Positions 1 to 64,000 of a DNA stretch of 64,000 nt are shown in pieces. The notes beneath the pieces were generated by a model. It saw only the letters and a list, made by a program, of their open reading frames with translations, was not told where the DNA came from and made no database searches. Source of the stretch: Heterotrichella gracilis (taxonomy: Eukaryota; Sar; Xanthophyceae; Tribonematales; Xanthonemataceae); contig JAULBX010013207.1 in the NCBI GenBank assembly GCA_032358255.1, positions 5,342 through 69,341 of the forward strand. Reading direction: 5' to 3'. Numbering within the stretch: the first letter of the stretch is position 1; each line of letters starts with the position of its first letter. A program made the translations under genes and the position numbers.

Positions 1-432
1 TAAACCCTACACCACGTGGCATGCCGAGCGGTGATGATACCCCTATTTCGTAAGTAGATATGGACATCTGATAACCACTGATGAGACTCTTTGTGGGAAT
101 CTCTCTGAGCTCGTGCAATTGATTAACCCTTTCCCTCCCCTGTGTTCTACCCATACACATCTCTGCCCATCAAGCAGCAAATCATCGACATCAAACCCTA
201 AACTCTGTTCATGAACCCTAAAGCCTAAACCTAAAAAAACCTAAACCACCCCCCGCAGGTGGCCACATCATCGACACCGTGGACATCAAACCCTAGACAT
301 CAGCCATGAACCCTAAACCTTAAACCACCCCCCGCAGGCAGCCACATCATCAACACCGTCGACATCAAGCTGCACATCTTAAACCCTAAAGCATGGAACC
401 CTAAACCCTATATCCTAAACCACCCCTCGCAG
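1..432 (+). other. gyrA intron with acceptor echoes
   Basis: This is the intron upstream of the first readable gyrA exon. Two decayed copies of that exon's acceptor and first codons lie at about 243-289 and 322-369, each with a C-rich tract, a CAG and the ACATCATCGACACCGT-like exon start. The working AG is at 431-432 and the echo AGs at 257-258 and 336-337. CCCTAAA-type tracts fill the spaces between copies. The earlier part of gyrA lies outside the window. Confidence 0.75.
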
Positions 433-3400
433 GCGGCCACATCATCGACACTGTCGACATCAAGCAGGCGTACCGAGATGGCAAGGGGAGCATACGAGTG
501 CGGGGCAAGGTGACCATAGAGGATGGCACCAGCACCGGGCGCAAGGGAGGGAAGGCCAGCAAAAAGAGGAGCGAGCGGCCGCTGATCGTCATCACCGAGC
601 TGCCCTACCAGGTTAACAAGGTAGGGTTTCAGGAGGGTTTGCATCAGGCTTGGTGTAGGGCTTCAATATCGAGCTGCCTTACCAGATTAACAAGGTAGGG
701 ATTTGGGAATTGGATGAGGTATTCGATCAGGGTTTGCATTAGGGTTTGGGGCGGTGGCTGCTGATCGCTATGACCGAGCTGCTCTACCAGGTTAACAAGG
801 TAGGGATTACCATTGCATCAGGGTTTGCATTACTGAGCTGCCCTACCAGATTTGAAAGGTAGGGATTAGGGTGTTCGGATTATGCGTTGCGTTAGGGTTG
901 CCTGTATGGGTTTTATTAGGATTTGCATTAGGGTTTTGGGACGGTGACCCTGATGGCAGTAGTACCAAGGGTTTGCATAAGAGTTTGGGTCGCGCAGGAC
1001 AAACCCTTGTAACAATTGCTTGGCTGTTTGAACCACTGACAGCTCCCCTTGGTTCCTCCCCGCAGGCCGCCCTGGTTGAGACCATTGCCAAGCTTGTTGA
1101 CGCGGGCACCATCCTGGGTGTGAGCGACGTGAGGGACGAGAGTGATCGGGAGGGCATGCGGGTGGTGGTGGAGCCAAAGAGGGGGTTTGAGCCGCAGGTA
1201 TGGCTGAAAAACAAAAACGGTTGAGGGCTCGAAACATTATGGACAGGGCTTGAGAACGCTCTTGTTGGCCGCTGGCAACCCTTTGTAAGGGTACTCGTAT
1301 ACATGTAAGGCGTCACCCCCCTTGCTGTTCCGACTGTTTTTGGCCATCCTCTGATGTAAAATCAGTGAATGAAAATCATCTGTGATTGCGTTCTCATGTG
1401 ATCGTAGCCAACCTTAATTTAGCTCTAATTTGTGATCATGCACTCCCACTCTCGGCATTGACCCCCCCCAATTAGCCTCTGATCATCCTTTGATCGCCTC
1501 GTGCAGATAATCCTGGCCAATCTGTACCGCCACACCCCCCTCCAGACCCGATTCTCCGCAAACATGGTTGCGCTGGTGGGGGGGGTGCCCCAATCGCTCA
1601 CCCTCAAGGCATTCCTGCAGCATTTCCTGGATTTCAGGTGGGGCAGGGGGGCAGGTGCACACTTTATCTTCACAGCTGTTAGCTAGGGCAATAAAGCATA
1701 GTAGGACCCAACTTCAACCATTTTATCATCTTCATACTCATGTTGTTGTGCAATTACTTGCATTCTTGTCAAACAGCAAAGTTAGCAGTCAGCCCTGTAC
1801 ACACGACGCCAGCCAGGTCTGTCCTGACACTTCCAGGCCATCCTGGACCCTAAACCCTAAAAGTTGGACCTCTGCCCTACAGGATACCTAACATTGTGCT
1901 GGGAACCCGGGCATGCGCATGTAGCTGATACATATATCAAGTCATATATGTATACATTTCCGAACCCTAAACCTCAACCCTAAACGCAGGTGCGAGGTGA
2001 TTGAGCGGCGGGCAAAGTACGAGCTGGCGCGCGCATCCAAGCGCCTGCACCTGGTGGAGGGTTTCCTGAGGGCTTTGGAGGGTTTGGACGAGGTGGTGCG
2101 CATCATTCGCGCGGCAGACGACGCAGCGGCGGCATCCATAGCGCTGCAGGTGGGAGCGAAACCCTACCCAACCCTTTAAAACCCTAAATAAGCACCTCGA
2201 CAACCTGGGGTTCCTGGAAGACTTCAGAAACCTGATGGGGTTGGAAACACTACGTTGTTGTATGCTGGCTACAGAAGTGCCCTATGCTAGGCATGGGTGA
2301 TGCCTTGTTGCATTTGGCCCAGATTCCCTTTTGGATCCCCTGCAACCCTAAACAAAAAACCCTAACTGTTATACCCTTTAATTGCAGGAGCTCATCGGTT
2401 TGAGCCACGAGCAGTCTGAGGGTGTGCTCAACCTGTCCCTCAAAGCACTTTAAACCCTAATTTTCAAACCCTAAACCCCTCCCCTGCAGGAGCTCATCGG
2501 TTTGAGCCGGGAGCAGGCGGAAGGTGTGCTCAACCTGTCACTCAGGCGCCTGACAGGCATGGAGAAGGCCAAGCTGGAGGGGGAGAACAAGGAACTCAAC
2601 GCAAAGTAAGAGGGGAGGTTTTGGGCGGGCTTGAGAGGGGGTTAGGGTTAAGGGTTTAGGGCAGAGCTGGAGGGGGAGAACAAGGAACTCAACGCAAAGT
2701 GACAGGGGAGGGATTACGGGGGTAGGGTGGGGTGTGGACCACATGCGGTGCTTGTTTGCGCTATTGGAAGGGAATCCGTTGTCATGGCCAAACACAACAG
2801 TCATGAAATTGCCTGCCATGTTGTGCCATATGCCAGATCCCTTGGTGCCCTCCCCCCTCCCTTCTCCCCCCCTCCCCAGCTCACCCCGTCCCACTCCCCT
2901 TGTCAAGGATCTGCGACCTCGTTTCCCTCCTAGGCAGCCGTGACGCTATCCCCTCCTGGCTTAGGGTTCTAGGGCTCCATGACCAGGGTTTTTTTTTTAA
3001 CCCCTCCCCACCCCCCTTTCCCCAGGATCTCCGACCTTGGTTCCCTCCTAGGCAGCCGTGATCGTATTCTCTCCGTGGTGGCGTCAGAGGCGGATGAGCT
3101 GGTGGAGAAGTATGGCACGCCGCGCAGGTGGGGATTACTTTATGAAGGGGAATATAGTGAATCCCGTAGTAATTATCATTTAGGAAGTAATTACAGGCTG
3201 ATTACTCTGAAGCAGATGAGCTGGTGGAGCAGTATGGCATGCTGCGCAGGCGGGGATTTCTATTATATCAAGGAATTACTTGCTGACTTGCTGTAATGCT
3301 TAGAAACCTAAACCCTAAACCCTACATGGGGATGTTACTTGCGTCCACACGAATTTCGGGTTCGTCGCATCAGGTGTCCGGCCAAGGAGACTGGGAGCTT

Positions 3401-6400
3401 CTGGGGCTTGATTGGTGCCCTTCCTACGATACAAGTGAATGAAGGCATAAGTCCCCTGTTGGTGTATGTGCGCACCCTGTGTATTTCTGTGGGTGGTGCC
3501 TCGTGCTTCCAAGCTAGTTCCGCTAACGCCAAGCAAGGCGGCACTATTTTCAAAGCGCTGATTGCCATGTACACAAACGTTCAGGCATGCCACAGAGGGC
3601 CTTGCGTCTTCGTTCACCCTCTGATAATACACTAGCATGCTTCAGTAACGATCGTATCAACCAGCAGTCACGAAAAGCATGCAGCTGTATTTGTGTCCCG
3701 GCTTGCAACTACATATGTGCGTTTTGGTTGTAGAGCTGCATTAGCACGTCTATGTATGGGGATGTTGCATGCGTCAACCTGGATTCCACGGTGTCGCATC
3801 ACGTGCTAGGCCCAGGAGCCTGGAGTCCATGGGGTTAATGCGTCCCTCTGTGAAACAAGTGGTTGAAGGCACAAGTCTCCTGTTGGTGTATATGCGCACC
3901 CTGTATGGTTCTGTAGGAATGGTGATGGCTTCCAAGCTAGTGCCGCTAATGCCAAGCAAGGCGGCACTTTTTTCAGAGCTGTCATCATCATTACAGAAAC
4001 GTTCAGGCATGCCTATAGATGCCAGTAGGGGCTTTGCGCCCTCATTCACTTGCTAGTAAATCCCCAACAATGACAAATTAAACTACAATCACTCCTGCTG
4101 CGCAGGTCTCTGATCGCGCAATCTGCTCCCGCCATCACCGAGGAACACGTGATCCCCAACAATGACAAATTAAACTACAATCACTCCTGCTGTGCAGGTC
4201 TCTGATCGTGGAGTCTGCGCCCGCCATCACCGAGGAGGACGTGATCCCCAACGATGAGAGCATCCTGGTCTTCAGTCGCAAAGGGTTCATAAAACGCATG
4301 AGCGCCGATACGTTCACCGTGCAGGGGAGGGGAGGGAGAGGTGCGCACACCAAAACCCTGACACATAAACCCTACAACCCTACGTGTGCGATCACACCCT
4401 GTCAGGTGATGAACACAGTGAATGTACATGACAACCTTCACACCTCCCCCACCCCCCCCCCTACCTGCCTGACCATAAATGCCACCTTACAGGAGGTTGT
4501 TGTTGTGCCCTAAACCCTAGTAGGGTAAATGCCCCTCCACCCCCTTTTCCAGCTGGACCCCGCCTAGCCACCAATGACACCATAGAGGAGAAGATAGTGT
4601 CTGTTTGCAATTTCCACCCTTATGCTAATCCCAGTTTAGCGTACTCCCCTTTCCCTCAAGGAGACACCAGCGTCGTGAAGCGCGTAAGCAAACCCACGGA
4701 TCCAGAAACAAGATATGCAAAGCCCAAAAGGCAAACTCCCCACCCCTTCCACCCTCGCAGGCAAGGCCGGGGCCCGCCTGACCACCGATGACACCATAGA
4801 GGAGGTGGTGTCTGTTCGCAACCACGACCACATACTGTTCTTCACACAATCGGGCACAGCCTACGGGCTCAAGGCATACCAGGTGCCAGAGGCCGCGCGC
4901 ACTGCAATTGGCACAGCGATTACCTCGGTGCGCATCGAAAACCCTGAAAGCAAAACCCTAAACCCTAAACCCTAAAAGTGGGCTCAAGGCGTACCAGGTG
5001 CCGGAGGCCGTGCGCACTGCAATTGGCACAGCGATTACCTCGGTGCGCGCTCAGAAACCCTGGCAAAACCCTAAACCCTGGTGGCGTGGTCGCTTCACCC
5101 CAATTGGGCGCGGCGGTAGGCAGGAGGTTACGTGGGGATGCATCAAAACAAACGGCAAAACCCTAAATCCTAAACCCTAAAACTGGGTGCGGCAAAACCC
5201 TAAACCCATAATACTTGGCTGAAGACCTACTAGGTGCCGGAGGCCGCGCGTACTGCAATCGGCACAACCATAACCTTGGTGCGCACCCAAAAACCCTGGC
5301 CAAACCGTTAAACATGGTGGCGGTGCGCACAACCACAACGTGGTGCACACTAAAAAACCCTGGCAAGCCCCTGGCAAAACCCTAATCCCTGGTGGCGGTG
5401 GGCTTGCCATAAACCCTGGCAAAACCCCAGGCCCCATGTGGCGTGGGCTCAGCCTGTCAGGTGCATCCCTGCGTTCCTGTTGCCAACGCATACCACCAGC
5501 ACCCACAACCACCACCAACACCGACCACCCCCCGCAGGTGCTCCCCATCAGCAAAACCGACACCATCAGCGCCATCCTGCCAGTGTCCGAGTTCAAGCCC
5601 GAGGAGTATGTGGTGTTCCTGTCGCGGGACGGGTTCATCAAGAAGACCTCGCTGGAGGTGTTTTCGAACATTCGGTCATCGGGGATCAACGCCATGAAGA
5701 TTGGGGTAGGTGGAGGGGTGCGGGGTTGTTTTTCTGTGTTTGAAATCCCGTTGGGGTGGTGGGATGTGAGCGTGAATGAGAAACGGGGGAATAGTTTTGG
5801 CCGGAGGAGTGTGTGGTGTGTGCTATTCTAGTCATGGGTTTGTCAACAACACCGGGGCCCAGCTGTTCTCAAACATCATGTCGTGAGGACCAATGCTATG
5901 ACGATCGGGGTATGTGGATGGGGCGATGGTGGAGTGGGCCCTGTTTGGATTGTCTGAGACCCACTCTGGGTGCCCTGTAGGATGCCCTGTAGGGCGCTCA
6001 CATGTATTTCAGCCCCTGCTCATCTGACACCCGCAATACTCCCACGTCGCCCTTACCTCCAAAAATCCCATGCTCGCACCGCCAACTTCCCCACCCCCAC
6101 CCTCTACCCCTGCAGGCAGAGGACCGGCTGCAGTGGGTGTCCATATGCACGCTGGAGTGCTCCATATTGCTGGGGTCCTCCGAGGGAAATGCCATACATT
6201 TCCGGGCCGATGAGGAGCAGCTGAGGGCCTCAGGCAGGTAAGGGGTTCGGGTTTAGTTTTTGGAGTGGGGTTTAGGATCTAGAATGAGGAGCAGCAGAGA
6301 TCCTCGGCAGGAAAGGGTTTGGAGTGAAGGGTACCCGTTTTTATATCGAGCCAGTGTATCCTGGCCCTGCGCTGCTTCTGTCTTCCGTCATCCAGGTTTG

Positions 6401-7878
6401 GTTAGGGCTTAGGGTTTTGTCTGCTGGGCATTCTTGGTATCTCTCATCCTTTCTGGCCTGCCCCGGCAATGGGTTGGATAGAACTGATGTATGTATGCCT
6501 CTGTGTTTCTCCCAGGGCGGCCCGGGGTGTGCTCTCCATGGATCTGAAGAAGGGGGGGGTGCTGGTGGGCATGAGCGTGCTGCCAGGGGGGGTGATGGAG
6601 AACGCAGGGGAGGACACAGGGCCATGGGTGCTGCTGGTGACTGAAAAGGTGGGGGATTTTTGTGTGGTAAAATGGGTTGGATTATCGTGGGGTATGGTGG
6701 GGGGACAAAGCCATGAAGGGAAAATTAAGAGCTTAAAAGCAACCCCCTTTCATCATGGCAAAGAGGGTCTGCTAGTGGCTTCCAAGCACCCAATGGCATT
6801 GCTACTCATGAAGACACTTCCGGGTGGTAATAGGCATCACATGTGTTTGGAATTGCCCGCACATTTGGTCATTGATTTCCCGCACAAGGCGCTGGTATGC
6901 GGGTCACTGTGGCAGCATTCAAGGTCCAGCGAAGCAATCACCTTTGACCAGGACACAGTTCCACTGCCATTACTTACCAACAACACTATTCCCCCAGGGT
7001 AGATCACATTTTCCCCCACATTTGGTCTATTGTTTTCCCCCATAGGGCGTTGGCAAGCGGGTCCCTGTGTCGGCTTTCAAGGCCAGCTGCGGGGTGGCAA
7101 GGGGATGAAACAAATGGATTGTAGGACTACATCTGCATGAATAATGAGGAATAAAGTAATACACTTTAATGCCTCGTCCATAAACAATGCAGCACAATGC
7201 AAGATCCACGACATCTCCTCTTTGTTGCTCCCACAGGGCGCCGGCAAGCGGGTCCCCGTGTCTGCCTTCAAGGCCCAGCGGCGGGGTGGCAAGGGGATGA
7301 AAGCCATCACCATCGACCAGGGCAAGGAGGACAAGCTGGTGGCCCTGCACGTGGTGGGGTATAATAGCGAGGAGGGGTACGAGGAGGAAATCATCCTGGG
7401 CTCGTCCCAGGGGCTGCTGCAGCGTGTGGCCATGGCGGGGGTTCCCGTCTACTCACGGGCGGCCAAGGGGGTGAGGTTATTCAGGGTGCAGGTGAGGCGG
7501 CATGGCACGTGATGTTGAGTTGCGGAGCATGAGTTGGCCATGGGTCTTGCATGAGTTGGCCATGGGTCTGGTGGGCCGGGCCATTCCCTGCCGACACTGG
7601 TCCCTCCCATTCCTGCGAGCGTATGCAGGCAGTCAACCCCAGAAACCCTAAGCGCTAAACCCAAACCCTTTCGCTTGTGCAGGATGGCGACTCCGTGCAG
7701 GCTGGCACCCTCCTGAAACCCTTAAAGCTGAACCCTAAACCCTAAACTTGTTCCTGTGCAGGATGGCGACTCTGTGCAGGCAGTGACCCCCTTGAAGCTC
7801 AGTGGGGAGGACCTGACGGGGGAGGCAGATGATGCCAGCACCACCTCTGCAGCGGCACCCCAGGCGGCAACCGCGTGA
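433..7878 (+). CDS. GYRA: DNA gyrase subunit A, plastid type, 5' partial
   Basis: Subunit A of the type II topoisomerase that supercoils organelle DNA. Thirteen exons join in phase: 433-620, 1066-1197, 1507-1637, 1990-2149, 2490-2605, 3026-3127, 4198-4340, 4761-4927, 5538-5705, 6116-6237, 6516-6648, 7237-7491, 7762-7878 (TGA). They encode about 644 residues. Family landmarks in order: VITELPYQVNK, GVSDVRDESDREGMRVVVE, LYRHTPLQTRFSANMVALV, coiled-coil gate residues ending RRLTGMEKAKL, then the C-terminal beta-pinwheel with repeated blades (SRKGFIKRM, TQSGTAYGLKAYQVPEA, SRDGFIKKTSLEVF). A GyrA-box-like QGRGGRG opens the pinwheel and a perfect QRRGGKG occurs about 210 residues later. The active-site Tyr region lies upstream, outside the window. 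Nuclear introns show it is nucleus-encoded; plastid (possibly also mitochondrial) import is inferred from plant and algal homologues. Introns are full of exon echoes. Confidence 0.95.
621..1065 (+). repeat. Donor-site echoes of the gyrA 433-620 exon
   Basis: The exon end (codons for ELPYQVNK followed by GTAGGG) is working at 600-626. Decayed copies recur at about 669-700, 774-806 and 832-866, so GT donors sit at 621, 695, 801 and 859. Each copy keeps most of CTGCC(T)TACCAG-TTAACAAGGTAGGG. Fragments of TTAGGGTTTG separate them. Confidence 0.8.
2388..2451 (+). repeat. Echo of the start of gyrA exon 2490-2605
   Basis: A copy of GCAG plus about 60 bases encoding ELIGLS-EQ-EGVLNLSL precedes the working exon by about 100 bases. 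It ends in TTTAAACCCTAA. A copy of the other end of the same exon (GAGCTGGAGGGGGAGAACAAGG region) lies at about 2664-2701, just after a TTAGGGTTTAGGG tract. Confidence 0.8.
3329..4040. repeat. Diverged pair of about 270-base direct repeats in a gyrA intron
   Basis: The segments near 3329-3600 and 3757-4040 share a common order of blocks: GGGGATGTT, GCATCA-GTG, AAGTG-TGAAGGCA, CTGTTGGTGTAT-TGCGCACCCTGT, GCTTCCAAGCTAGT-CCGCTAA, GCCAAGCAAGGCGGCACT. They are clearly related but diverged. Neither encodes a gyrA-like peptide, so this is a separate intronic repeat rather than an exon echo. No terminal inverted repeat is obvious. Confidence 0.7.
4550..5290 (+). repeat. Echoes flanking gyrA exon 4761-4927
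   Basis: Three partial copies surround the working exon. About 4550-4615 copies its start (CGCCT-ACCA--GATGACACCATAGAGGAG). About 4979-5046 copies its end (CTCAAGGCGTACCAGGTGCCGGAGGCC to ATTACCTCGGTGCGC) and is nearly intact. About 5215-5285 is a third, more decayed copy of the same end. CCCTAAACCCTAAA tracts lie between them. Confidence 0.82.
6880..7107 (+). repeat. Two graded echoes of gyrA exon 7237-7491
   Basis: The exon start (GCCGGCAAGCGGGTCCC to the AAGGCCCAGCGGCGGGGTGGCAAG region) has a well-preserved copy at about 7037-7107 and a poorer copy at about 6880-6960, which still shows AAGGCGCTGGTATGCGGGTCA, TTCAAGGTCCAGCG and ATCACCTTTGACCAGG. Preservation falls with distance from the working exon. 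Confidence 0.8.
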
Positions 7879-11345: not shown

Positions 11346-13993
11346 ATGGTGCGACAGGCCCTCAACCCTCGCCTCCCCCTACTCTTCCTAGCCCTCTTGC
11401 TGGCTCTGCCAGGTTCACTGCAGGTGGAACTCAGGGGCAGGCGCCTGTTTATCAGGTAATTGAACGTACTGACTCCCCTCTGCGGGGTACAAGGACAGCA
11501 TGGTATAGCGCTGAATTGCAGTGGCTTGTGTACCAAGGAGGAGTGACCCTCGCTTGCACTGTGTGCAGGAAGCTCCCTGGGGAGGAGGAGGCACTGACAG
11601 CACCTCCAGAGACGTGTGAAAACACAGCACAGGGCAAGTACGTGGCACACCTAAGCAACCCTTCCATTCACCAGTCTTGTGCATCCAGATGTCGCACTGA
11701 CTTGCCTATATGCATGCATATGAGCTGCAGCTGACAGCGGGGATTGCCATATTCTGTAGTCCCTAGTCCCTTCTGACCCTCAGGCCCTTGTGCAGGTGGA
11801 TCCTTGCAGATGACAAGGGCTACGTGTGCTCCCGGGAGGAGTTCAAGTACCAGACGGGGTGCTGCGAGGGCGGGAAGCAGTTTGTGTGTGACACGTGAGT
11901 GGCTGGGAGCAGCACTTGGGTTACAACCGCCATTACATGCCCTGAACATGTAAACCTGGAATTGCGCGGCAGCGGTTTTCTGCTTTGCCTTGCTATAGGT
12001 AGATCTTGCCCTTACTGACCAACACGCAGTGCTTCGCCTAGTGTGCAGTATCGCTTAGAGTGCAGGAGGTCTCACAGCATGTCACCTGCGCAGGTGCACA
12101 GCTGAGGACAAGTGCTGTGTGGAGCTAGAGCAGTGCGTGTCCTGCTGCCTGGCGCCACACAACAACGCAAGCACGCTCATCACGGAGAGCTACCGCTCGT
12201 TCGGAAGGTAGGGCCGCACTCGCCCACTTGCGCAACACTGCATCTGGGTGCACCACTCCGGCATCACCTGTCGGTAGATCGGGTCTCATTACAACCAGCA
12301 AGGGAATAGCGACAGTCTGATGACATGCGCCTTCTATCACTTGATGCCGGTGCAGCCCTGGCAGCGATCACAGACCCCAGCAGCCACGCAAACCCTAAAC
12401 GGAACCCTAAACAGAACCCTGCCCCCACAGGCCTGAGACGGGCGTGTGGGAAACCCCCTTCCAGTACTGCCTGGGCCGCTGCCGCACCACCTCGCGCAGC
12501 ACTGTGCATGAAAATGCCTACCTCTCCACCCACCACCACTGCTTCTCGGACTCAGGTAGGGCTTAGGGCTAGGGTACCTGGGCATAGGGTTTGGGTATTT
12601 GGGCTTAGTACATGGCTGGGGCTAGCATAAGGCGTCCCTCTCCACCCACCACCCCTGCTTCTCGGACCCGAAAACAGTGTAGGGGTGGGTGGGTGCATGC
12701 AGCTGGGGTAGGACATGCCGGGGCCATGGGATCACTGGCATGGTTTAATACAAAGCGCGCCCACTGCCAGTGAGCTTTACTGCTGCATGCATGTTGAGGA
12801 ATGCCATGACATATTAAGAAGTTGATTTTTCTTGGCAAGGCCCGGCGCTGGCCTTCTGTTGGGCGGGGGTGCACCCATTGCAAGGTTGGGGACATGGGAT
12901 GCACCCGATCAACCAACCCCTCCCCAGCCTGGAGTCCATAACCCACGCCACACTAACCCCCACCAACCCCACCACCACTACACACCTCACACACCATTTG
13001 CGGAAAAAATGGTACACAATGATGGAAGCACGCATGTTCAGGTAGCCAGTGCGCTGTGCATTTCCCACATCACGAGGTTGCAGCCCACAACCCCCATCGC
13101 ACACCTTCGGCCTACAGGCCGCCCCCTGCTCCCCGAGCCGCCCCTCGGCCTCCTGGGCCCTCCATCACCCTCATCGCCGCACAGCCAGGCCAATCATGCT
13201 CCGGTGCCTGCTCAGTTGCTGGCGGCGCCTCTTCCCCCGCCACGCACTCCAACCTCATTCACCGCATTACCCCCTCTCCACACCACCATCGCACCACATC
13301 ACACATACCCCCCGCACCCCATAGGCCGCCCCCTGCTCCCGGAGCCGCCTGTGGGCCCCCTGGGCCCCTCAATCACCCTCATCGCCGCACAGCCTGGCCA
13401 ATCATGCTCAGTGGCTTGCTCAGCGTCGGGGGGCACCTGCGACGGCAACTCCTTCCCCGCCATGCACTCGTGCAACCTCATGCGCGCGCACTTTGGGTGC
13501 GAGGCGGGGTGCACAGTGCAGACAGCCATGGAGCACCCCGCCTACACAGTTGCGGCTGCGCCCAAGCACCAGGTAATGATTGTGCATCTTGAGAGTTACC
13601 TGTCCATGTGTCTGATTTCATTTCATTCTTTGGTTGTCTCATGTGTCTGATTTCATTTCATTCTTTGGTTGTCTCTTTCCTCCTTTGCACCGGTGCGCAG
13701 GGGATGACCTCCCGTGTTTATTGTCGATTTTTTCAGTTTTTGTATGTATCTAAAAATCTGATACTTTTAATATAATTTTAATAATTTCTCTTTCACCTAA
13801 GGCCAGTTTGACCCTATGGGGTGGGAGGACCCCCTGGGTTTTTGTATTTGCGCTGCCGCCAATGCAAGTTCCCTGCTTCCTGCCCCAGGTACCCACCATG
13901 TGCTTCGTTGGGAAGCCAGGCAGCTCGGTGGGGTGCGACGCGGCTGGCAATCTGCTGCGCAGGCTGTGCCCGTGCAGGCCCGCGGAGAGGTAG
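11346..13993 (+). CDS. SPRING / DUF2054 family Golgi membrane protein
   Basis: Homologue of the animal SREBP-regulating gene product SPRING (C12orf49) and its plant relatives, secretory-pathway proteins with a Cys-rich luminal domain. Six exons in phase: 11346-11455, 11796-11894, 12094-12207, 12431-12555, 13325-13572, 13889-13993 (TAG); 266 residues. The N-terminus is a signal anchor (PLLFLALLLALPG). The DUF2054 core follows: ADDKGYVCSREEF, TGCCEGGKQF, CCVELEQCVSCCLAP and FQYCLGRCRTTSRSTVHENAY. A second Cys-rich part (QPGQSC, AHFGCEAGC, final LLRRLCPC) is, as I recall it, present in plant homologues and resembles a segment of MGAT5-type proteins. Function in algae is unknown; a role in Golgi processing is inference. 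The intron at 12556-13324 holds an echo of exon 13325-13572. Confidence 0.9.
12625..13260 (+). repeat. Exon echoes inside the SPRING-like gene
   Basis: About 12628-12668 copies the end of exon 12431-12555 (CCTCTCCACCCACCACC-CTGCTTCTCGGAC). About 13110-13262 copies about 150 bases of exon 13325-13572 with its acceptor (TACAGGCCGCCCCCTGCTCC to GGCAACTCCTTCCCCGCCA-like sequence), but small indels destroy the frame. The real exon follows about 60 bases later. Confidence 0.8.
13606..13675. repeat. Perfect 35-base tandem duplication
   Basis: Two identical 35-base units, 13606-13640 and 13641-13675, lie just inside the last intron of the SPRING-like gene. The lack of any difference suggests a recent event. 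Confidence 0.95.
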
Positions 13994-14591
13994 CGGAGGT
14001 GGTTGGGTGGGGGATGCGGGCGGACCCTTAGGAGGGGTTTTTGTGTATGCAAGCTGTGGCGGGAATGCGACCTGATGGGGTGCAGGGTGACACGCTGTGC
14101 GTAGGCCCTTGGGAGGGCAGAGAGGGTGTTTTGGGGGTCCCTGGTTTTAGGGCAGGGTGAGAGCGAGGGGTGGTGTGGTGTGGTGTAACCTACTTTAGGC
14201 AGGTAGGTTAGTATTGGTACTGCACCACAGCGTCTGCATTTATACTTTATGCAGAGATTATTGTGAGCGTCTGCTGTGGAAGAGACATCGTATGTCCACA
14301 TACGTACGGCACCACCATGCCTAGGCGAGTTCCTATTTGTTTCATGTACCTTTGTCCTTTTCGTTTTAGTCTGCCAAATAAAGTACTCGTTGTATTTTCA
14401 ACACACGAGATAATCAGGCCTAAGTGCATGTGTTGCTGTTTAAAAGGGCTTAGAGAGTAAGGAGCTTCACGCAGTCAGCATGCGCATTTGTATATCACAT
14501 GATAGTGATGAGCCATGCTGGCGCACCAGTGGCCATGCCAACATGCGTATGCTGCTTTGCCATTCCCAACGAATGGAGAAGCAGTGCGCAC
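13994..14591. other. Convergent intergenic stretch; expected kinase C-lobe absent
   Basis: This lies between the SPRING-like stop and the last recognisable kinase exon. I searched both strands by eye for the missing kinase motifs (APE, DxWxxG) and found none. A TGTAA, the usual chlorophyte polyadenylation signal, is present at 14184-14188, about 190 bases after the SPRING stop. Confidence 0.5.
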
Positions 14592-17500: not shown

Positions 17501-18591
17501 CGGACGCTTGTAATTGTATCTTATTCACACCGTTTGCGATACAGGCATGCCACTGAATGATCCCTATGCACAGCGTCATCAGTCATCATGCCTGGCACTT
17601 ACATATGATCCTGGCATTTGATCAAGTCTTGGCCACAGCTGACTTGCAAGAGCACGGGTTTTGAAGTCTGCTGCTGGCAAAACCTGATCTGTCAAAGACA
17701 AGTTTGTCATTAGCACTCCTTCCAAATTCAAACGGCTGCCGTTGGCCAACCGAATGGCGCCAGGGAGTTGAGCAAAATCTATGACTGGCAGGCTGAACAA
17801 GGTGAAGGCATTACTATTAGCGCCGAGGGGAGGAGACACTGTGGGTTGCGCACCAATCCCTGAAACCACACCACCCATGATGGGGTCTTACTAAGCAGTC
17901 GCTGCTGAGTTCATAAGCATACTGATCAGAGCATACTCATGAGTCCACAAATCTATGAATTAGCTGGATTTCTTTACAATTTTCCAATAATTAACGGGTG
18001 CCGCAATGCGCTATATCTGCTTGGATGGTGACTGTGCGCCCACCAGCCAGCAGCACAGCTGGCGTTGTCGCCTGCCATTCCTGCCCATCCAGCCGGATTC
18101 TCATACCTGTAGGTTGCACCACACACACTGTCAGAGAGAATCAAAATGAATCAATGTGTGCTACCCTGCACACCAGTGGCATGCCATGTATATGCATTGG
18201 ACTGTTAGTCTACCACATATACAACATGGTACAGTTGCAGCCCGGGCTCGTGACAGCTATCCCACATACGCTCATGACTTTGTGGGCGCCTAGACCTAGG
18301 ATTGATATCCACAGCATGAAAACCCAAAGGGTATTGATGGAAACTCTTACCCGGGGGAATGGAGATATGCTCAACAGCAGGGTTGGCAAGGGCCCTGTGC
18401 AATTCCGCAGCAGAGGCAACCACCACCCCTTGCCCCACAGTGACTGAGCTATCCATGGCAGTTCCATGCTGGGCAGGTACTGGTGCTGGCGCTGGTGCTT
18501 GGTGTAGAGTGCGCTGCTTGTGGCATGAGACCACACACATCACCAGAAGCAGCAGTCTGAGGCCTTGGCACGCTTCCCTCCATGCATTCAT
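14592..18591 (-). pseudogene. TKL-type receptor-like kinase, interrupted and truncated
   Basis: Eight exons: 18351-18591, 17996-18106, 17603-17886, 17125-17332, 16596-16909, 16043-16261, 15119-15796, 14592-14804; about 756 codons, all phases consistent. ATG at 18591 opens a signal peptide (GLRLLLLVMCVVSC). The ectodomain (LAGGRTVTIQADIAHCG, N-glycosylation sites) is of an algal type I cannot name. One TM segment (ALVGGLVGGIVAVLCVLGG) is followed by Arg-rich sequence. Kinase motifs: glycine loop IGKGAFVK-VYKGKWRG split across an intron, ATVAVKLI (catalytic Lys), a roughly 130-residue Ser/Ala-rich insert, LHGDLKPNN (HGD for HRD) and ADFGLA. Two defects: TAA at 17135-17137 in the fourth exon, and no APE or later subdomains after NSMGT. 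Reading through the last donor reaches a stop near 14475. It may still make a secreted ectodomain. Confidence 0.75.
15034..15086. repeat. Short tandem duplication in a kinase intron
   Basis: The unit GTCAT-GCGCAGCTGACAGAGCATG/C occurs twice in a row at about 15031-15055 and 15060-15084, just past the donor of exon 15119-15796. Confidence 0.7.
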
Positions 18592-19034
18592 CAGGCAAGC
18601 TGGCAACGGTAGGCTATTCAGAAAGGAACAGGCCAGGTCTTTGGCTCTGTTAGCCCATGCCACGGTAGGTGGGCTCCATATTCATTGGTGAGCTGTCAGA
18701 CCAGGTATCTGAGGTGAGTGACCAACAAGTCGTTAGCAGAACAGTCCTTTACTGTAATAGCTTTTAAGTGTCAAAGTACAGGCAAGGAGCAGCGTCTACG
18801 ATGCTTTACGCACAAATTAACCACTTGCAGTTGTGTCTCGCGCTCTGACACAATAGGTAACAGGCTGCCCACGCACACACACAATCACAATACTACTCAG
18901 GTTTTGGTGGCCACACACAACGCCGGCGATAAGCAGCTTTGTTAACAAGACCAAGTTATGTAATTGGTTGTGGGTAGACTCTCCCTCCAACCACTGCTAT
19001 GAGAGGGTGCATGGTTTTAAGGTCCGTCCCGGGC

Positions 19035-20870: not shown

Positions 20871-20873
<3 letters not shown>

Positions 20874-20905
<32 letters not shown>
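20874..20905. repeat. TA dinucleotide microsatellite
   Basis: About 16 uninterrupted AT units within a gene-free stretch. Confidence 0.95.
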
Positions 20906-20909
<4 letters not shown>

Positions 20910-49587: not shown

Positions 49588-52500
49588 CTGCCCGCCGCCT
49601 CCGCCAACCCCGGCCCCACATCGAACGCCGCAGCGGCTGCCAGCAGCTGGTCGGGGGTGAAATCCAGCGCCGCCAGGTGTCGCCCGTTGAGCGTTGCCAG
49701 CAGGTGCTCGAATGGCTGCGCCAGGAGCTGGTCCTGGGAGCATTGGAGTAGTGCCAGGCCCACCTGGAACACCGCCTGTGGGGGGTTGGGGAGAGGGGTG
49801 GGTGAGACGGGGAGAAAGGGAGGGTGGGGGCTAATCACAATTCAAAAAATATGTGTATAATATACGGTATGTGTATAGTGTAGGGGCTGAACCAACCTGC
49901 CCTGGCCAGCTGCAACAGAATGGCCCTTGCCACCCTTGGGTTAGGGTTAAGGGTTGCGCCCTGCCCCAGCCTGCCATAGCCACCAGCCCTGCCCCATGCT
50001 GCCCTCCCCACCACCCCGATTGCACATACATACCCTGCCAGCCCAGCACACTGGTGCGCCCACCCCCGTCTTCACCCCACCACCACCACCGACGCACCTG
50101 TATGCCCGCCGCATCACCACCGCCGCAGCGCACCTGTATGCCTGCCACATCGCCACCACCACCACCCCCACCGCCACCGCTGCGGCACACCTATATGCTC
50201 TCAACGCAGCCCACGCCTACCCCCCCAACCCCACCACCCGTCCGCCGTACGGCGCACCTGTACTCCCTTGCACCATGACTACGTCCCACATGCGCAGCGG
50301 CAGGGTGTAGGCCATGAGCATGATGAACCACTGGCTGCAGTGCAAGCCCCTAAACCCTAAACCTAAACCCCAAGCAGCCGCAGGGTGCAAGTGCAGTGCA
50401 GGTCCGTACTCCTTCCACCCAAATGCAAACCCAACCCCCCGATCACCCCCCACCCCACCCGCTGCGCACCTGTATCCCCTGCATCATCACCACGTCCCAC
50501 ACCCGCAGCAGCAGGTGCAGCGGCAGGGTGTAGGCCATGAGCGTGATGAACCACTGGCTGCAGTACAGGTGCGCGCTCACGTGCTCCCCCGCAAGGTGCG
50601 CGGCCAGGGGGGGCAGCCATTGGGCAACCAGGAAGTCAAACTGGGGGGGGGGCAGGGGGAGGGGAATGGGTCAGTGGCAGGCGGGGAGCATGTGGGGCTC
50701 AAACTGAGGACTGTGCGTGCACATTTCCAACAGCAGGCTTTGACCCTATGCCCAAGCGCACACCCACTCCGCAGTCGAGGCCTGGCGAATGACGACCGCT
50801 GCCGCCGGACAAAAAAGAAGACACTGATTAAAAAACTAAAAAGGTGTCCATAGTACCCACTGACCCATTCACTTGGTGGGACAAAGAGCTCTTGGCCATG
50901 CATGAAGAGCAGAATGATCAAGACATGCCGGGCAAAATATCGCAGGGACTTGCACCACGCCACACTGGCCTGGCATGCTGGGCAGGCGGGAGGCCGCTGT
51001 GGGGGTATGCCACTGCATGTATGCAATAGACAGTGTCTGCGGCTGTGCAGGCGGAATATCCCCACCATGGCAGGAGCCCAAAAGCTCAAACCCGAGCCCT
51101 GCGCCCCACCCCACCCCACCTGGAAAATGAAAGCCGCCGCAGCAGCAGCCCCTCCTAACCTGCTGTGCCACCCCCCCTTGAGCAGCGCCACCGCCACAAA
51201 CTCTACCCCCTAACCTCCTTAACCCTATGTGGTTTTCCTTCCTTGCATTCAAAGCCCCAAAATCCGGTCCTACGCCTCACTCACACGCACCTGGAACATG
51301 CACAGCCTCAGCAGCGGCAGCCCCTCCTGGTACATCCCCTCCATTGGCGGGCTGTGCCGCTCCCCCTTGAGCAGCGCCACCAGGGTCCAGAAGGCATCCT
51401 CCTCGCTCATGTACAGCAGCAGCAGGCCCGCGATGAAGCCCATGCCCTGCACATACCCCACCTGCGGGGGTGGCCAAGAGACGGGTGAAGTGAAGGGGGG
51501 AGGGGAGAGGGGAGAGGGGGATGGGGAGAGGGGAGAGGGGCCCCTGGCTGTGCACGCTGAAGGTGTGAGCAATCCCCGTGTATTTTCAGCTTGCAAAGTT
51601 TGTGCACAAGGAGGAGAGAGAGAATCTTCCTCGCTCATGTCCAGCAGCAGCAGGCCCGGAATGAAGCCCTTGCCCTGTATGTACCCCACCTGCGGGGGGG
51701 GTGAAGCGGCAGGGTGAAGGGAGGTGGTTGCGCCTGGTATGTTGCGTGCTGTGCAAGGGCGGGACTGCTAGTTGGCCAAGTTATAGGAACCCACGTAGCC
51801 GTCTGGCTATGGTGGGTTAAAGTGCTTGGTAGAGGCAGGTGGGACAGCATTATGCAAGAATGGGAGCTAGTTGCTGCGAATGGCTACCTTGCCATGGAGG
51901 TGGCCATCGAACGCCAGGTAGGCCTTGGAGCACGCTGAACAGGTAGGGCAAACCCTAAACCCTAAACGTTAACCAAGGTAGGAGCTAGTTGCTGCAGGCG
52001 GCACTTTGTCACTGCACGCCAGATAGGCCTTTTGTAGGGTTAAGGGTTTAGGGCCGGCACCCTGACATCGTACGCCAGGTAGATTGTTGAGGGGTTTAGG
52101 ATTTAGGGCCGGCACCTTGTCTTCGTACGCCAGACAGGCGTTTTGTAGGGTTTAGGGTTTAGGGCCGGCACCTTGTCGTCGTACGCCAGGTATGCCTTGA
52201 GTACGTTGAACAGCGAGCGCTGCCCCGGCCCCTGCTGCTTGGAGTAGAACACGTGGTGCGGGTAGGTCCTGCTCAGGTCACGGACTATCTCCAAGTCCCG
52301 GTGGGTGGCTTCTTGCAGTACTAGCTGGTCAAACAGGCCTGCACAAACAGGGGAGGTGTGTGTGGGAGAAACCCTAAACCCTAACCAGGGTGCTTGGACA
52401 GGAACACCTTGGTTTCCTGCCCCTGTCACCCAGCTGTTGGGGACACTCCAGTCAGGCGGGGCTGGAAGGTGCCGTCGGTATGCAGTAAAGTTCTTCAGCA

Positions 52501-54336: not shown

Positions 54337-57300
54337 ATGCCATGTGCCCTACTGCTCCTTGCACAACCCAACAAGGGAGTGCAGATACGCAATTCACGTC
54401 TGTATGCTGCCAGACGCAGTGTTAACCTTCTGCCACAACTCCAGCCCTCCTCCACTCCCATTGCCATCCAAACAGCCTGCCACATGTGCATGAGCCTGGC
54501 AATATTTACCCTCCTCCTCCACCTCCCCTGCACCCTTTCCCACCTTGCCCCACAACCACACCACCACCTTCGCAGTCCCTCCCCTGCGTGGCATCCCCCC
54601 GCCAGCAGCCACCCCACCGCAGACACCCCACCACCCTGTCAGCCAGGACCAGCCGAAACCCCGCACCCCGCGCCTTCTTCACCGGCGCAACCCAGCTGTC
54701 GGCAATCGCACCCACCAACGGGGCCAGGTGGACAGCGGCGCAATGGCTAGAGAACAGGTGAGTGAAGAAAAAGACTGGCCCATGCCATGTATGCACGCAT
54801 AAGCAAGGCGCACACCAATGCGGCCAGGTCACCTGGCAGGTGGGCAGCGGCGCAACGGCTAGAGAACAGGTACCGTGAAAGGGAAATTGTCGCGCAGGCC
54901 ATGTATGCATGCATATGCAACGCACGCACTAAGGGGTAAGGTGGACAGCAGCGCAATGGCTTGAAAAAAGGTAGGGCAAAGGGGTTGGTTCATGCCATGT
55001 ATGCACGCATATGCAACGCACATGACTGGAATTTTTGGTGAGCTTTTTTACCATTGGCCACAAGTACTGTATTAATACACCAGGTTCAATAAGGCACACC
55101 ACAGTAGCACCTTCGGCCGCAATCGTAACGCAGCTTTTCCCTCTCCTTTTGCAGTGCCGAGGCCGAGGTGCCTGTGCCCCTTGAGGAGGCCTGGCGCCTG
55201 TGGGAGGATCGGGAGCTCATCCCGCAGTGGATGCCCTGGATCAGCAGTGTGAAGGTGCAGGAGCAGGACACAACCATGTCACGGTGAGAGGCACAGCATG
55301 GTGAATTAGGGTTCTGTAGGGTTTTAGACTGGTTGCCGGGCTTAGCACCACATCTTTAGGGTGCAGGCGGAGGCCACAACCATGTCACGGTGAGGACCGT
55401 CATTAGGATTTCAGGTTAAGGATAGGGTTCAAATCACTCGGTCAAGGTGCAGGCGGGAGAAACAATTGTGTCACGGTGAGGACCACATCAAGGTTTGCAG
55501 GCGGCCAACAGGGTTGCAGACCGGTGCTAGGGTTTCAGTCCGATGGTAGGGTTTTCCTTGGTGATAGGGCGTGGACCACCGTGTTAAGTGCAGATGAGAA
55601 TATGTACGTTGGCAAAGCCACTATCATATCACTTAATGATGCAAAGCCCGCTGCAGTACTACCTCATGGGATTATCACTGGGATTATCTGACATCAGTTC
55701 TCACCCTCCTGTGTTCCCTCCCCTTCCAGCTGGACCCTCTCCACCTACCAGTTCAACCGCCAGTGGCAGTTCTCGTGGCTGGCAAAGAACCTGACGCCCG
55801 TCAAGTACCAAAAGGTGAAACTTTAAACTCTCACCCTAGAACTTAAAGCCTTAACACTTCTCGTGCCTGGCAAAGAATCTGACGCCTGTCAAGTACCAAC
55901 AGGTAAACCTATAATGGCTTTGCTACGGTGTTCGCAGCTGTGGTGCAACCCCATTTACCTACAGCACGTTGTGTGCTGGTGGCCGATGGACATGTTCGGC
56001 ATGCACTTGAATGCACACGCACAATATGAATGTGCGTATAGGGTGTACCGAGTGGTAAGTCAGGAAATCATGCTAATGTGTCAGTGGAACAGGTAAACCA
56101 CTGAACGTAGAGTGGTACGTACATAAATAATACCTAAAAACCACCTTTTGCCATTTTCTAGACAAGCTTTTTTGTTGTTGTTGGTTAACAAGGGAGTGCA
56201 CGCTTCTTGCCTGGCACGGGGGGCTGACATGTGCATTGGGAAGGATGGGAATGGGTCACGGGCATGGGCATGTTGCTGAGGAGGGCCATCGCTGTCTTGG
56301 AGTCGGCTGTGCGAGCCCTGACCATGGCTGGGTTTGGCGGGTATGCATGTGTGATTCGTGTGCATGTTCTCGGTGCCAGGCATGGCCAAGTGCAGACATG
56401 TTTGCCCTTGAGCGTTTGCACAAGAATTACACATGCATACCCACCAACCCCGCCATGGGGAGGACTGCACAGCGGACTCCAACGCGTTGGTCACCCTTAC
56501 CCACTGATCCTACCCCAGCACCCCCATTTGTAGTCGATGCTGCATGCCCTGCCATGTCCCAAGGGTTTTGGATTAAGGGTTCAGGGCGCGTACTTGCATC
56601 CAGCTGGTACAGTGTAGCCCACGCAGCCGATGTTGTATTCCAAATACCCCAGCAAGGTGGTTTAGGGTTCATATAGGTGCATGGGCATGCTGGGTGCGGC
56701 ACGTCATGAGACTCAGACAAGCGCGGCGCGAGATGCCTTGCCATGCACTCGCCGCTAGCGTGGGTGGGTCAACCCTTGGTGAGGGTTTGGGCCACCTGTG
56801 TGCAGGCATGGTAGCTCCTACCCATACTGGCGCGGGCGGTAGAACAGCGATTCATCGTTGGAAATGAGTAAGAACATCGCAAGGACTCCTTGCCACCCGA
56901 TATCGCTATCGACCACTTGTTCTCACCTTCCCTTCCACTGCCTGCAGATCCACTGGCGCTCGGTGGATGGCTCAGTGTCAGGCAGCATCGGATCTGCGAT
57001 AGAGGTGCCAAACAGGCAAGTAGCAGGAACTAGCATGGGTACCTGCACTGCTAGTCTAGGCGTGACAGGGGTGAAGGCAGGATGCAGGGACCAGGGGAAT
57101 GTGTGGTAGTGGAGTGGTTAGATGGACCCCAAACCCTAAATGCGGAAGGGCCTGGCTTCCCAACAGCATGCATGTTTAATAGTAATTGAACCGGGTTGGA
57201 ACCGCTTAATAGGGATGGAAACGTTTTCCATCCCATTTCCCCCACCCTACACCCGTGCAACAGGGCCAGATCCGCGTCCCACCCAACGAAATTACCAACC

Positions 57301-60204: not shown

Positions 60205-62410
60205 TCAGCACGCCACCTCAGCGCAGAAGTGCATGCCAGCCACGCAGTGTCCGTCCACGGGGCAGCCGTAGCAGTGCTGCGGGGGTGGGGTGGGGGGTGT
60301 GACAGTCAGGAGGGGGCTGTGCGGCACCACGGAGAGGGGTAGGGGGCCCTGTGAGGGCAACAGGGAAAAGAGGGGGTTCATGTGTAGGCAAAAACCCTAA
60401 AACCCTACAACCCAGGGGGCTGTGCGGCACCAGGGAGAGGGGCAGGGGGCCCTATGAAGGCAACGGGCGAAGGGGAGGGGTTATGCGAGGGCAATTTTTA
60501 TGTTTCAAAACCCTAAAACCCTTAAACCCAGGGAGAGGGGCCCTGTGAGGGCAACGGGGAAAATGGGAAGGGTGTCAGGGTTATGTGATGCAAAACCCTG
60601 ACACCCTTCAAACCCAAAACCCAGGGAGAAATGGCAGGGGACCTGTGAAAGCAACAAGGGGACAGGGTGGAATATTTCTAAGAAAGAAATAAGAAAAAAC
60701 AGAACGCCTCCACAAGCTGCGGCACACTACCAACCAGAATTGTGTTTAATTAAGGGCACCGGATGCGGGGTTGGGGAGGGGGGGGTATGTGAGGGCCACT
60801 GGGGTAGAGGAAGGGGTGCGTGAGCAGGTGGCTATATGAGATTGAGAGGTTGGGGGGTGGGGTGGGAAGGCACACCCTAGACCAACACCACTGACGATGA
60901 TGACTCATTGGCATGTGACAAAGAGCATAGGTTGCTGGCGGTCGCTGCGTTTGAGGCTAGGCGGCTTTGCGTGGCACAGATGTTGTTGCAGCACCGGGGC
61001 ACGCATGGCAACAGCTGTTTCAGTCGAAGCCGCAAAAACCTCAAACGCTCGCAACTGTCAGCAAACTACGTTCTTTATCACATGCCAGTTAAGCACCATT
61101 GCCAGTGGTATCGGCCGGCAAAACCTGTACTTTAGATCATAGCGTCATGAAAGTTTAGGGTTTTTAGGGTTTTTGGGTTTTAGGGTGTTGCTCACCAGGT
61201 CGCATGTGTCCAGTGTCACCGAGGGGCTGGCAGTCTCCACGGGGGCCTGAATCTGCACCAAGTTTGGCTCATTTGGGATGGCCACAAACTGCGCAGGGCA
61301 AGTGTAGGAGGGGATGCGCCACAGGCCATGCACCAAATTTGGAATTGTGGGCCACACCCAGGTGATTGTGCCCCCCTTGCAGACGGTCACATTTGGGTAG
61401 ATGTTGCCCAGGCCCCAGGGGTCGATTTTCACGGCGTTCTGGCATCCCGAAGGGCCAGGGGATTCTGAACCGGCTTGCGTGCCTGCCTGCGCCTGCGTGC
61501 CTGCCTGCGCCTGTGTGGTGGAGCCTACGGGGCGGGAACGAGGGTTTGGTCAATTTTTTGGTTCCAGAGCTGCCCGGGGCTGGGCATTTCAAGGGCAGCA
61601 CCCTGTCCATGGTTTAGCGTTTAGGTTTTACAGTGTAGGGTGTTTCCCAGATCCCAGGGGTCGATATATAGGGTGTGGCATCCTGAACAATCCTGCGTTG
61701 TGGAGCCTGCGGGGAGGGAAAGGAGGGGTCATTTCAGTATCATTTTCCACTGGAGGGCGGAGGCGGGGGCAAACCCCGTGTAATGCTGTGCATCTCAGAG
61801 GTGGACGCCTGTCTAGAGTTTAGAGTTTACAGTATAAGGTGTGCCATCCTGGTGGAGGCGGGGACAGCATGCGCTTGCGTTGAGGAACTCCATGAGGTGC
61901 CCTCCAAGGGCTCAGCTGCACCAGCATTGGCTCTGGCACTCACAGGCAATTAAACTTTACGCACGGTACATGCACCTACTAGACTAGTACTACTGTGACC
62001 CCATATTGCTACCTTTGAGGAAAGGTCAATCTTTAGGCTAGCATGCGTGTACTAGTGTGCATGTGCAGAACATCTGAGACAGGGTTCAGGAACTGCAGAC
62101 AGGGTTAGCTCAACCTTTACTACGAGTATGTTCCATGCATACATACATGTCAAACCCCAAAGGCTTGTACACATCAAATGGGGCACACTAGCGTTGCTCA
62201 TTCGCCAGGTGGATCACAGGGCGAAAGATGGTCGTGCACTGCACTGAGAGGTCAACCAAGTCCAGCCGGTTCCGTCAGTGTCCCTCACGCACCATTAGAG
62301 CCGAGATAATTACCCCCACCCTGGGGCTGTGCGAGGGCGCCCCCCACCACCGCCGCCACCGCCACCAGGGCCACCAGGAACCCGGTCCTGTTGCTCGAAA
62401 GGGTCTGCAT
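60205..62410 (-). CDS. Secreted blue-copper (cupredoxin) protein
   Basis: Small extracytoplasmic type 1 copper protein, presumably an electron carrier. Three exons: 62410 (ATG) down to 62314 (62320 is an equally in-phase donor), 61196-61524, 60205-60276 (TGA); about 165 residues. A clear signal peptide, FLVALVAVAAVVGGALA before Q, is followed by a Gln/Ala/Gly/Thr linker with AQAGTQ repeats. The cupredoxin barrel reads NVTVCKGGTITWVWPTIPN and LVHGLWRIPS, with the first His ligand. The last exon, HCYGCPVDGHCVAGMHF, carries the Cys-(x)-His-(x)-Met cluster. All four type 1 ligands are therefore present. The closest named families are phytocyanin/plastocyanin-like. The 0.8-kb first intron holds an echo of exon 61196-61524. 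Confidence 0.85.
60350..60640 (-). repeat. Repeated AACCCTAAAACCC / CAGGGGGCCCTGTGAGGGCAACGGG units
   Basis: A unit of GGGAGAGGGGCAGGGGGCCC, TGTGAGGGCAACGGGGAAAA recurs about five times between 60331 and 60660. Each is joined to CAAAACCCTAAAACCC or worn forms. It lies in the second cupredoxin intron next to the acceptor of the last exon. Confidence 0.8.
61585..61710 (-). repeat. Echo of the cupredoxin middle exon
   Basis: On the minus strand a copy begins with CCGCAG and GCTCCACAACGCAGGATTG and reads GSTTQDCSGCH-IDPWDLGN, matching GSTTQAQ..GCQ..IDPWGLGN of the working exon. It lacks the repeat linker and ends in TTTAGGTTTTACAG-type sequence. Confidence 0.83.
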
Positions 62411-63173: not shown

Positions 63174-63916
63174 TCATGTGCACTGCGCGTGGTCAATCCA
63201 CAGCCTGAACATGTAATCTTTGTCCGGCTGTGCGTCGGTCCCCAACCAGTAGCCATTCCCCGGGATGACGTCTGGGCAGTAGGAGAATCCGCCGACATTA
63301 TCGTTGGATGTCCTCACCATCTTCCATGCATACATCTGCCCGGCGTGAACTGGGGCAGAGGTGCCGGCAATGGTGAAAGACACCCTGCAAACCACGGATG
63401 GCGCTGGTAAAGTCTAACTTGCACACACCATGATTCACTGCAGTCTCCACAGCATGTGCTTCTGTTAAGTTGTCTACGTGTGGAATGGAATAACAAGGCA
63501 TTTATTTTTACAAACGCCGTTGCCATATCTTCCCATGATGAAATCCTTCTTCCTGAACGAAGTTATGGGGCATCCTTTGGATGCCACACCTACTACCCTT
63601 AACATACACATCAATGCATGGCACTAGCGCATGCACCGGTGGGTCGATGGCCAATGATTTACGCACCAATATGCAGACTGAGAGGGAGCAACATCCACCA
63701 CATTGGAGGTGGCCAACAGGGTCCCTCCAGGGTTGTCAAGGTGCACCTCCAGCTTGTAGGAAATGGGGAATTCTGCATCAGGCGTGACCCACACATTGAT
63801 CTTGTTCACCTACAGGTTGGCCAGGGTGCTGAGCGGGGTGAAGGTCTGGCCGATGGCGTTATTGATGGCAAGGCTCACGGAGTTGGGGCAGGTGACCACC
63901 ACATCAAGCGCCGGAC
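63174..63916 (-). CDS. 3' part of an extracellular-type gene, unknown, possibly broken
   Basis: Two exons: 63667-63916 and 63174-63384 (TGA); the gene continues past the right edge. The first reads DVVVTCPNSVSLAINNAIGQ, then a TAG at 63810-63812, then VNKINVWVTPDAEF and LEVHLDNPGGTLLATSNVV. The second reads VSFTIAGTSAPVHAGQMYAW to FRLWIDHAQCT. Beta-rich, Cys-poor sequence without basic patches suggests a secreted or surface domain, but I do not recognise the family. The TAG can be avoided if 63810-63878 (GTGAGC...CTGTAG, 69 bases, a multiple of three) is a tiny intron; otherwise this is a nonsense allele or pseudogene. Confidence 0.5.
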
Positions 63917-64000
63917 CTGTACATTGTGCAAACAAGGTTACCATTCTGTCATTGCTGAAATATTAATTGCTGGATTAATGCTCAAGGGATTGGTCCAACA

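Follow-up and report, generated by a model that had tools for sequence, protein, structure and literature searches.

gyrA and its neighbours in the window

We analysed a 64-kb stretch of the genome of the alga Heterotrichella gracilis (contig positions 5342-69341; the window, to whose positions the coordinates below refer unless a contig is named), in which introns carry partial copies of the edges of adjoining exons. The genome, assembled into 68.5 Mb on 903 contigs, combines spliceosomal introns, a bacterial-type gyrA, a light-harvesting family and the motif TTTAGGG. Exon borders and gene ends were predicted by a self-trained hidden Markov model (HMM), with a homology check for gyrA alone; the names of the other genes in the window come from the original prediction or from our reading of the translations. 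As an independent check outside the window, we took two further blocks of 100 kb, C2:20001-120000 and C13:50001-150000, from this genome. Over the window and both blocks, the HMM gave 39 genes and 313 introns, with a median intron of 316 nt and a sharp splice consensus (donor (C/A)AG|GT(G/A), acceptor GCAG|G). An earlier setting with cheap introns had produced 1946 introns and a median exon of 18 nt, and was dropped.

The HMM placed gyrA on the forward strand at 433-7878, with exons at 433-620, 1066-1197, 1507-1637, 1990-2149, 2490-2605, 3026-3127, 4198-4340, 4761-4927, 5538-5705, 6116-6237, 6516-6648, 7237-7491 and 7762-7878. The predicted protein aligned to residues 2-637 of a solved DNA gyrase A chain (best E 5e-106), and all 12 junctions among these 13 exons fell inside ungapped stretches of the alignment, which indicates that splicing of gyrA uses the outer sites. 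The original prediction, made from the sequence alone, had claimed this for the copies in all the genes that it listed; for the other genes, use of the outer site is what we infer. A 10-nt model exon at 21-30 was taken as an edge artefact, with the 5' part of gyrA necessarily lying to the left of the window, and for the leftmost of the 13 gyrA introns the acceptor alone is known.

Ten of these 13 introns carry copies. Upstream of exon 433-620, two acceptor-edge copies (261-289 and 338-370, together spanning 261-370) have the AG and CCCTAAA-rich flanks, and a donor-edge copy of the same exon follows at 748-799 (45/53 identical, GT kept). Exon 2490-2605 is copied on both sides, at 2388-2442 (acceptor edge, 49/55, AG kept, a CCCTAAA tract near the joint) and at 2658-2698 (donor edge, 39/41, GT kept, a TTTAGGG tract at the joint). 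The same holds for exon 3026-3127, with an acceptor-edge copy at 2908-2959 (44/53, AG kept) and a donor-edge copy at 3206-3249 (38/44), in which GC replaces GT. A duplication internal to an intron spans 3326-4049 (3326-3617 and 3756-4049, 75% identity); its 294-bp unit at 3756-4049 matched only these two places, its own locus, in a search of the whole genome. A 92-bp tandem array (4060-4257, 2.2 copies, 92%) crosses the acceptor of exon 4198-4340. Exon 4761-4927 is represented by an acceptor-side part copy at 4552-4670 (82/119) and a donor-edge copy at 4980-5042 (60/63, GT kept, a CCCTAAA tract at the joint), and exon 5538-5705 by a donor-edge copy at 5793-5909 (80/117, GT kept). Acceptor-edge copies of exons 7237-7491 and 7762-7878 lie at 7046-7110 (59/66) and 7683-7717 (29/35), both with the AG kept. 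All of these features are on the forward strand.

Comparable copies were found in other genes of the window. On the forward strand, these are a donor-side part copy of exon 12431-12555 at 12629-12667 (35/39), a donor-edge copy of exon 54576-54757 at 54917-54970 (46/56, GT kept) and, at 55828-55902, a copy of most of exon 55730-55814 including its donor (61/78, GT kept). Reverse-strand copies comprise the donor edges of exons 32084-32214 (31885-31926, 36/42) and 44864-44996 (44533-44633, 70/101), each with the GT kept, and the acceptor edge of exon 60205-60348 (60414-60451, 36/38, AG kept, a TTTAGGG tract near the joint). Two tandem arrays also lie on the reverse strand: a 56-bp unit made of an exon end, its donor and a CCCTAAA tract (51999-52198, 3.6 copies), and a 220-bp unit with GCAG|GTATGT in each copy (41891-42435, 2.4 copies, 94%).

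Copies were absent above threshold from the 11 introns of the hydrolase gene (21991-29164), contrary to the original prediction; there was just a 100-bp repeat that overlaps about 20 nt of its first exon. The 15 kb at 13491-28849 held no self-comparison match closer than 2.5 kb, only short tandem arrays, and match-rich genes flank it on both sides. A CCACCA-rich, low-complexity repeat field occupies 40237-41135 within a 1633-nt intron of the AP2-like gene.

Introns match their adjoining exons

We compared each intron with its flanking exons in scans that covered introns of up to 2500 nt and exons of at least 20-30 nt (312 of the 313 introns and 342 exons). At a score of at least 10, 54 of 609 pairs of an intron and an adjacent exon matched over the window and both blocks, as against 1 of 1165 pairs with sampled non-adjacent exons of the same gene, 1 of 1194 with exons of other genes, 1 of 609 with the reverse complement and 0 of 609 with shuffled exons. 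When exons two to five positions away were used for comparison, the counts were 28/125 adjacent against 3/324 in the window, 16/231 against 0/667 in the C2 block and 10/253 against 0/763 in the C13 block, which amounts to 26/484 against 0/1430 outside the window and to 3/1754 for the distant exons of all three regions. A copy was present in 44 of the 313 introns (23/68 in the window, 13/118 in C2 and 8/127 in C13). These results confirm that exon-edge copies in adjoining introns are real and recur outside the window. The 28 matching pairs of the window, 12 of them in gyrA, bear out the more than 25 copies first noticed there, and equal matching by non-adjacent exons, the outcome named at the time as telling against the idea, did not occur.

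Self-comparison of the three regions gave 80 direct repeat alignments with copy starts less than 2.5 kb apart (window 45, C2 19, C13 16), several of which share one array and so are not independent, and no inverted repeats closer than 1 kb. The offset between copies had a median of 197 and a 5-95% range of 100-500; 61 of the 80 offsets lay at 75-250, with few larger ones and a lower end set by detection. In a test for head-to-tail arrangement without filler, the young arrays at 4060-4257 and 41891-42435 were true tandems, and many other pairs had unaligned gaps, often of 50-150 nt. Since the source is the adjoining exon, and the copies are direct and local, they point to local duplication rather than to introners.

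The copies reach the splice junction. At a score of at least 8, 42 of 63 matched exon stretches ended no more than 2 nt from the junction, compared with 4.7 expected by random placement. Of the 36 copies extending exactly to the junction, 28 retained the GT or AG, in agreement with its usual inclusion in the original prediction; the squared identity of the copies predicts a fraction of 0.71. Retention close to this value suggests that the spare sites show neither protection nor purging.

Copies with a score of at least 10 were 68-100% identical to their exons (median 85%). A frameshift was present in 29 of 54 and an in-frame stop in 9 of 54, and mismatches at exon codon positions 1, 2 and 3 were.132,.130 and.211, which fits a constrained exon paired with an unconstrained copy. 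Thus, the copies look dead. The further claim that copies worsen with distance from the junction was not upheld: the nearest copy was the better one in 9 of 17 comparisons (mean difference +0.038, p=0.28), and over the best copies identity did not correlate significantly with distance (rho=-0.10, p=0.45). Very young duplications, up to 98.7% identical, were seen at 54476-55255 of the C13 block (C13:104476-105255) in a gene resembling that for the acetolactate synthase small subunit, a name read from the translation; one exon-end copy there had been modelled as an extra exon.

Duplicates spanned a junction in 53 of the 68 matches that touch an intron, as against 41.4 (sd 3.4) under random placement. 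With ancestral introns only one to three hundred bases long, duplication units of the size seen here must in most cases overlap a border, so that geometry accounts for the greater part of the junction bias; exon borders are mildly over-represented beyond what unit and intron size give. Copies of last exons were found as well: at a score of at least 10, they occurred in 4 of 71 terminal flanks (3' and 5' pooled), all four of them 3' flanks, compared with 0 of 69 in the control, the gene ends in this comparison being predicted. Three of the six last-exon alignments that were printed extend to the final base of the exon (genes 10, 12 and 19), and the stop codon is kept in genes 12 and 19. Splice sites are thus not required for a duplication to be retained, and a duplication would, as a general rule, persist wherever its outer copy leaves the message unchanged.

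Origin of the copies and the part of telomere-like tracts

We consider short tandem duplications in gene bodies, retained where the outer copy gives the same mRNA, to be the best reading of these observations, and a probable one. Tandem duplications, mostly of about 90-230 bp, would recur in the gene bodies of this alga, their source probably being error-prone repair of DNA breaks; matches to Ku (on two contigs), TERT and a POLQ domain show that the genome encodes these components. A unit that spans an exon border would be tolerated when splicing keeps the outer, original site. The mRNA would then be unchanged, and the intron would gain one unit with a spare exon edge and a spare splice site, a copy free to decay without constraint. 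As the step could be repeated, some introns may be stacks of their own border; the end of a last exon might be duplicated likewise, its copy landing in the 3' flank. The core of the original prediction, duplication across exon borders with the outer site kept and the old one decaying, is supported by the matches described above. The observations show that the copies are local, direct, adjacent to their source, under no constraint as they decay and not dispersed, that they extend to the junction and that they recur outside the window; break repair as the cause, outer-site use beyond gyrA and neutrality are inferred.

Several observations weigh against this reading in its plain, neutral form. 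Exons and gene ends are predictions, checked by homology for gyrA alone, and three of the 324 non-adjacent exons matched in the window too. The junction excess could reflect a true preference, or a detection bias, because conservation of the exon prolongs the time over which its copy can be recognised. Matches wholly within introns outnumbered wholly intergenic ones by 15 to 3 (p=0.008), such position pairs being equally available; plain neutrality does not predict this, short of more frequent breakage in gene bodies or tighter constraint on intergenic DNA. Copies were also over-dispersed among genes (chi2 115 vs 39 expected, reached in 0 of 5000 simulations), and 21 of the 39 predicted genes had none. 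This qualifies the genome-wide regularity first proposed: copies are present in the outside blocks too, but in a patchy rather than a uniform manner. Among 36 of the 39 genes, those with one intron being excluded, copy frequency correlated with GC content at third codon positions (GC3; rho 0.48, outside blocks 0.57) and with mean intron length (rho 0.48). This heterogeneity and the correlations with GC3, length and telomere-like tracts fit plain neutrality poorly.

That the copies are functional, mutually exclusive alternative exons is highly improbable. Some are long and recent, such as a 57-bp exon piece (54/57) modelled as a further exon of gene 35 in the C13 block, but most are mere edges, the frameshifts and stops given above are frequent among them, and 13% of the bases at codon positions 1 and 2 differ. 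We give equally little credence to introner or transposon insertion and to assembly artefact. Introners are dispersed families and a source of new intron sequence, and near-identical copies dispersed in many genes were not found among the sampled introns, nor genome-wide for the one unit searched, the 294-bp gyrA duplication, which lies at its own locus alone. A few of the sampled introns do contain a small dispersed repeat; however, the matches between introns of different genes came to 26 pairs which, classed by reading, were 16 short telomeric ones, 6 of this one repeat, 2 from a paralogous gene pair and 2 others. Copies of 68-90% identity should not arise as assembly stutter. The dispersed repeat itself (matches of 42-112 bp, 83-89% identical) lies in introns g16_i6, g18_i6, g19_i3 and g37_i14 of four predicted genes in the C2 and C13 blocks, and is possibly an introner or a short interspersed element.

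A more serious competitor, which we nevertheless rate below even chances, holds that telomeric tracts drive the duplication. A tract near a splice site would be a weak point or a break-healing addition, and fill-in or re-priming, by telomerase or by CST with Pol alpha-primase, would duplicate the exon edge. CST is the telomere fill-in complex and, by analogy, would join tracts and duplications in one step. We counted 110 tracts of at least 10 bp in telomere phase, compared with 0-11 for each of the 19 other cyclic arrangements of the same bases; 100 were in introns, 1 in an exon and 9 in intergenic DNA. Within 40 nt of splice sites there were 31 CCCTAAA tracts against 11.2 expected (0 of 2000 simulations) and 11 TTTAGGG tracts against 7.0 (p=0.06), with the caveat that tracts in one intron are not independent. 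At duplication joints, taken from the 36 of 63 copies that score at least 10 and end within 2 nt of the junction, a tract of at least 8 bp lay within 25 nt in 13 of 36, compared with 5.0 expected in the same introns; for tracts of at least 10 bp the figures were 8/36 and 2.3. The 8-bp excess held without gyrA (6/25 vs 2.58, p=0.028) and in the outside blocks (5/16 vs 1.35, p=0.006). Copies and tracts were correlated across the 36 genes (rho 0.70; outside blocks 0.62). In contrast, 23 of the 36 joints had no tract, the partial gene-level correlation was lower (0.48; outside blocks 0.31), and at the intron level the tract was not independent of length and GC3 (z=1.73; 0.43 without gyrA). The link to CCCTAAA/TTTAGGG that was first noticed thus stands at joints and genes and fades at the level of introns.

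The finer predictions of a tract-driven process fared less well. Telomerase-style polarity along introns, with TTTAGGG at the donor end and CCCTAAA at the acceptor end, was not found; CCCTAAA was ahead at both, by 13 to 6 introns at donors and 12 to 3 at acceptors. Polarity at the joints leaned the predicted way (10/15) but was not decisive, and telomere-like microhomology on the exon side of the joints was not found (3.20 vs 3.01). A model search of the genome for CTC1 gave no match, although the same model matched no control either. At C75:85001-86300, in favour of the tract-driven reading, an exon end has four further copies; GTGAGCAAACCCTAAAC, a donor plus CCCTAAA tract, comes after the original and after each copy except the last, and the exon holds ACACCCTACC, with similar sequence opening two of its four copies. 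This array was picked by its pattern and is no random draw, and its exon is a putative one. Genome-wide, CAG|GTGNG was followed by AACCCTAAAC within 30 nt at 486 places and at 300-330 nt at 242, an excess of just two-fold in which overlapping tracts were counted repeatedly. A bolder extension makes the tracts beside splice sites hot spots where the telomere machinery (telomerase or CST-Pol alpha-primase) recopies the exon edge, so that telomere maintenance enzymes would continually lengthen the introns of this algal lineage, most strongly in high-GC3 genes; we regard it as doubtful.

Selection of the tracts for splicing, with CCCTAAAC as branch point near the acceptor and GGG runs near the donor, is a tentative possibility that we place slightly behind tract-driven duplication. 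The density of tracts per kb was 0.79 in introns, 0.10 in 3' flanks, 0 in 5' flanks and 0.20 further out, a distribution that suits a splicing role; the scarcity in 3' flanks also argues against transcription alone as their cause. Of the 14 instances of CCCTAAAC within 60 nt of an intron end, 13 lay at 14-38 nt, one at 5 nt and none at 40-60 nt. However, CCCTAAA was about as common near donors (the 13 introns above), where a branch point is not expected, as near acceptors (12), and in tract-free introns CTAAA was not enriched (3/218 vs 2/150), whereas CTGAC was (23/218 vs 2/150). CTGAC, enriched 12-45 nt before acceptors relative to the control stretch, with CTCAC and CTAAC weaker, is a likely branch-point consensus.

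Border copying and known systems

To our knowledge, intron lengthening outside transposon-rich genomes is poorly documented. Here, single introns hold a readable record of stepwise growth by border copying, at a frequency sufficient to measure rates, sizes and joints. The spare edges also supply naturally occurring decoy splice sites with which to study how the spliceosome picks the outer site, and the tracts suggest a connection of telomeric DNA with break repair and gene structure that can be put to the test. Among the titles and abstract openings returned by searches of an open-access library, we found no report of frequent border copying that lengthens introns, nor of a tie to telomeric tracts. 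Within those limits, frequent border copying appears as a previously unreported variant of the known origin of introns by tandem duplication.

Introners resemble the copies as a source of new intron sequence and differ in being dispersed, the alga's copies being local. Related processes are known elsewhere. In mammals, telomeric tracts are inserted at double-strand breaks, and a minority duplicate the flanking sequence (PMC2246262). These too are short telomeric tracts inside chromosomes; in the alga they are nearly confined to introns, lie near splice sites and occur at some joints of duplications of about 90-230 bp. In mouse cells, CST-guided Pol alpha-primase and Ku80 give small tandem duplications at breaks with 3' overhangs (PMC8355091), which would favour a tract-driven process. 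Those duplications are short and tandem like the alga's, and of a type made by the telomere fill-in complex; they differ in being under 100 bp and from mouse cells, so that the pathway would apply to the alga by analogy alone.

The closest relatives of border copying are cases of intron gain. Tandem duplication is an established source of new introns (PMC3443670, PMC2891723), and both there and here a short duplication arises in a gene, the mRNA stays intact through splicing and the duplicate comes to lie inside an intron. There, the new intron forms within an exon, between exonic AGGT copies; in the alga, the copies repeat existing borders, nearly all of them lengthening an existing intron by way of its own border, and, alone among those seen, the array at 41891-42435 could represent a new intron made by AGGT duplication. 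In the potato RdRp gene (PMC4974935), as in the alga, a duplication crosses an intron-exon boundary and carries the splicing signals along. That is a single case, in which a new intron was created; in the alga, border copying involves 44 of 313 introns and needs no new intron.

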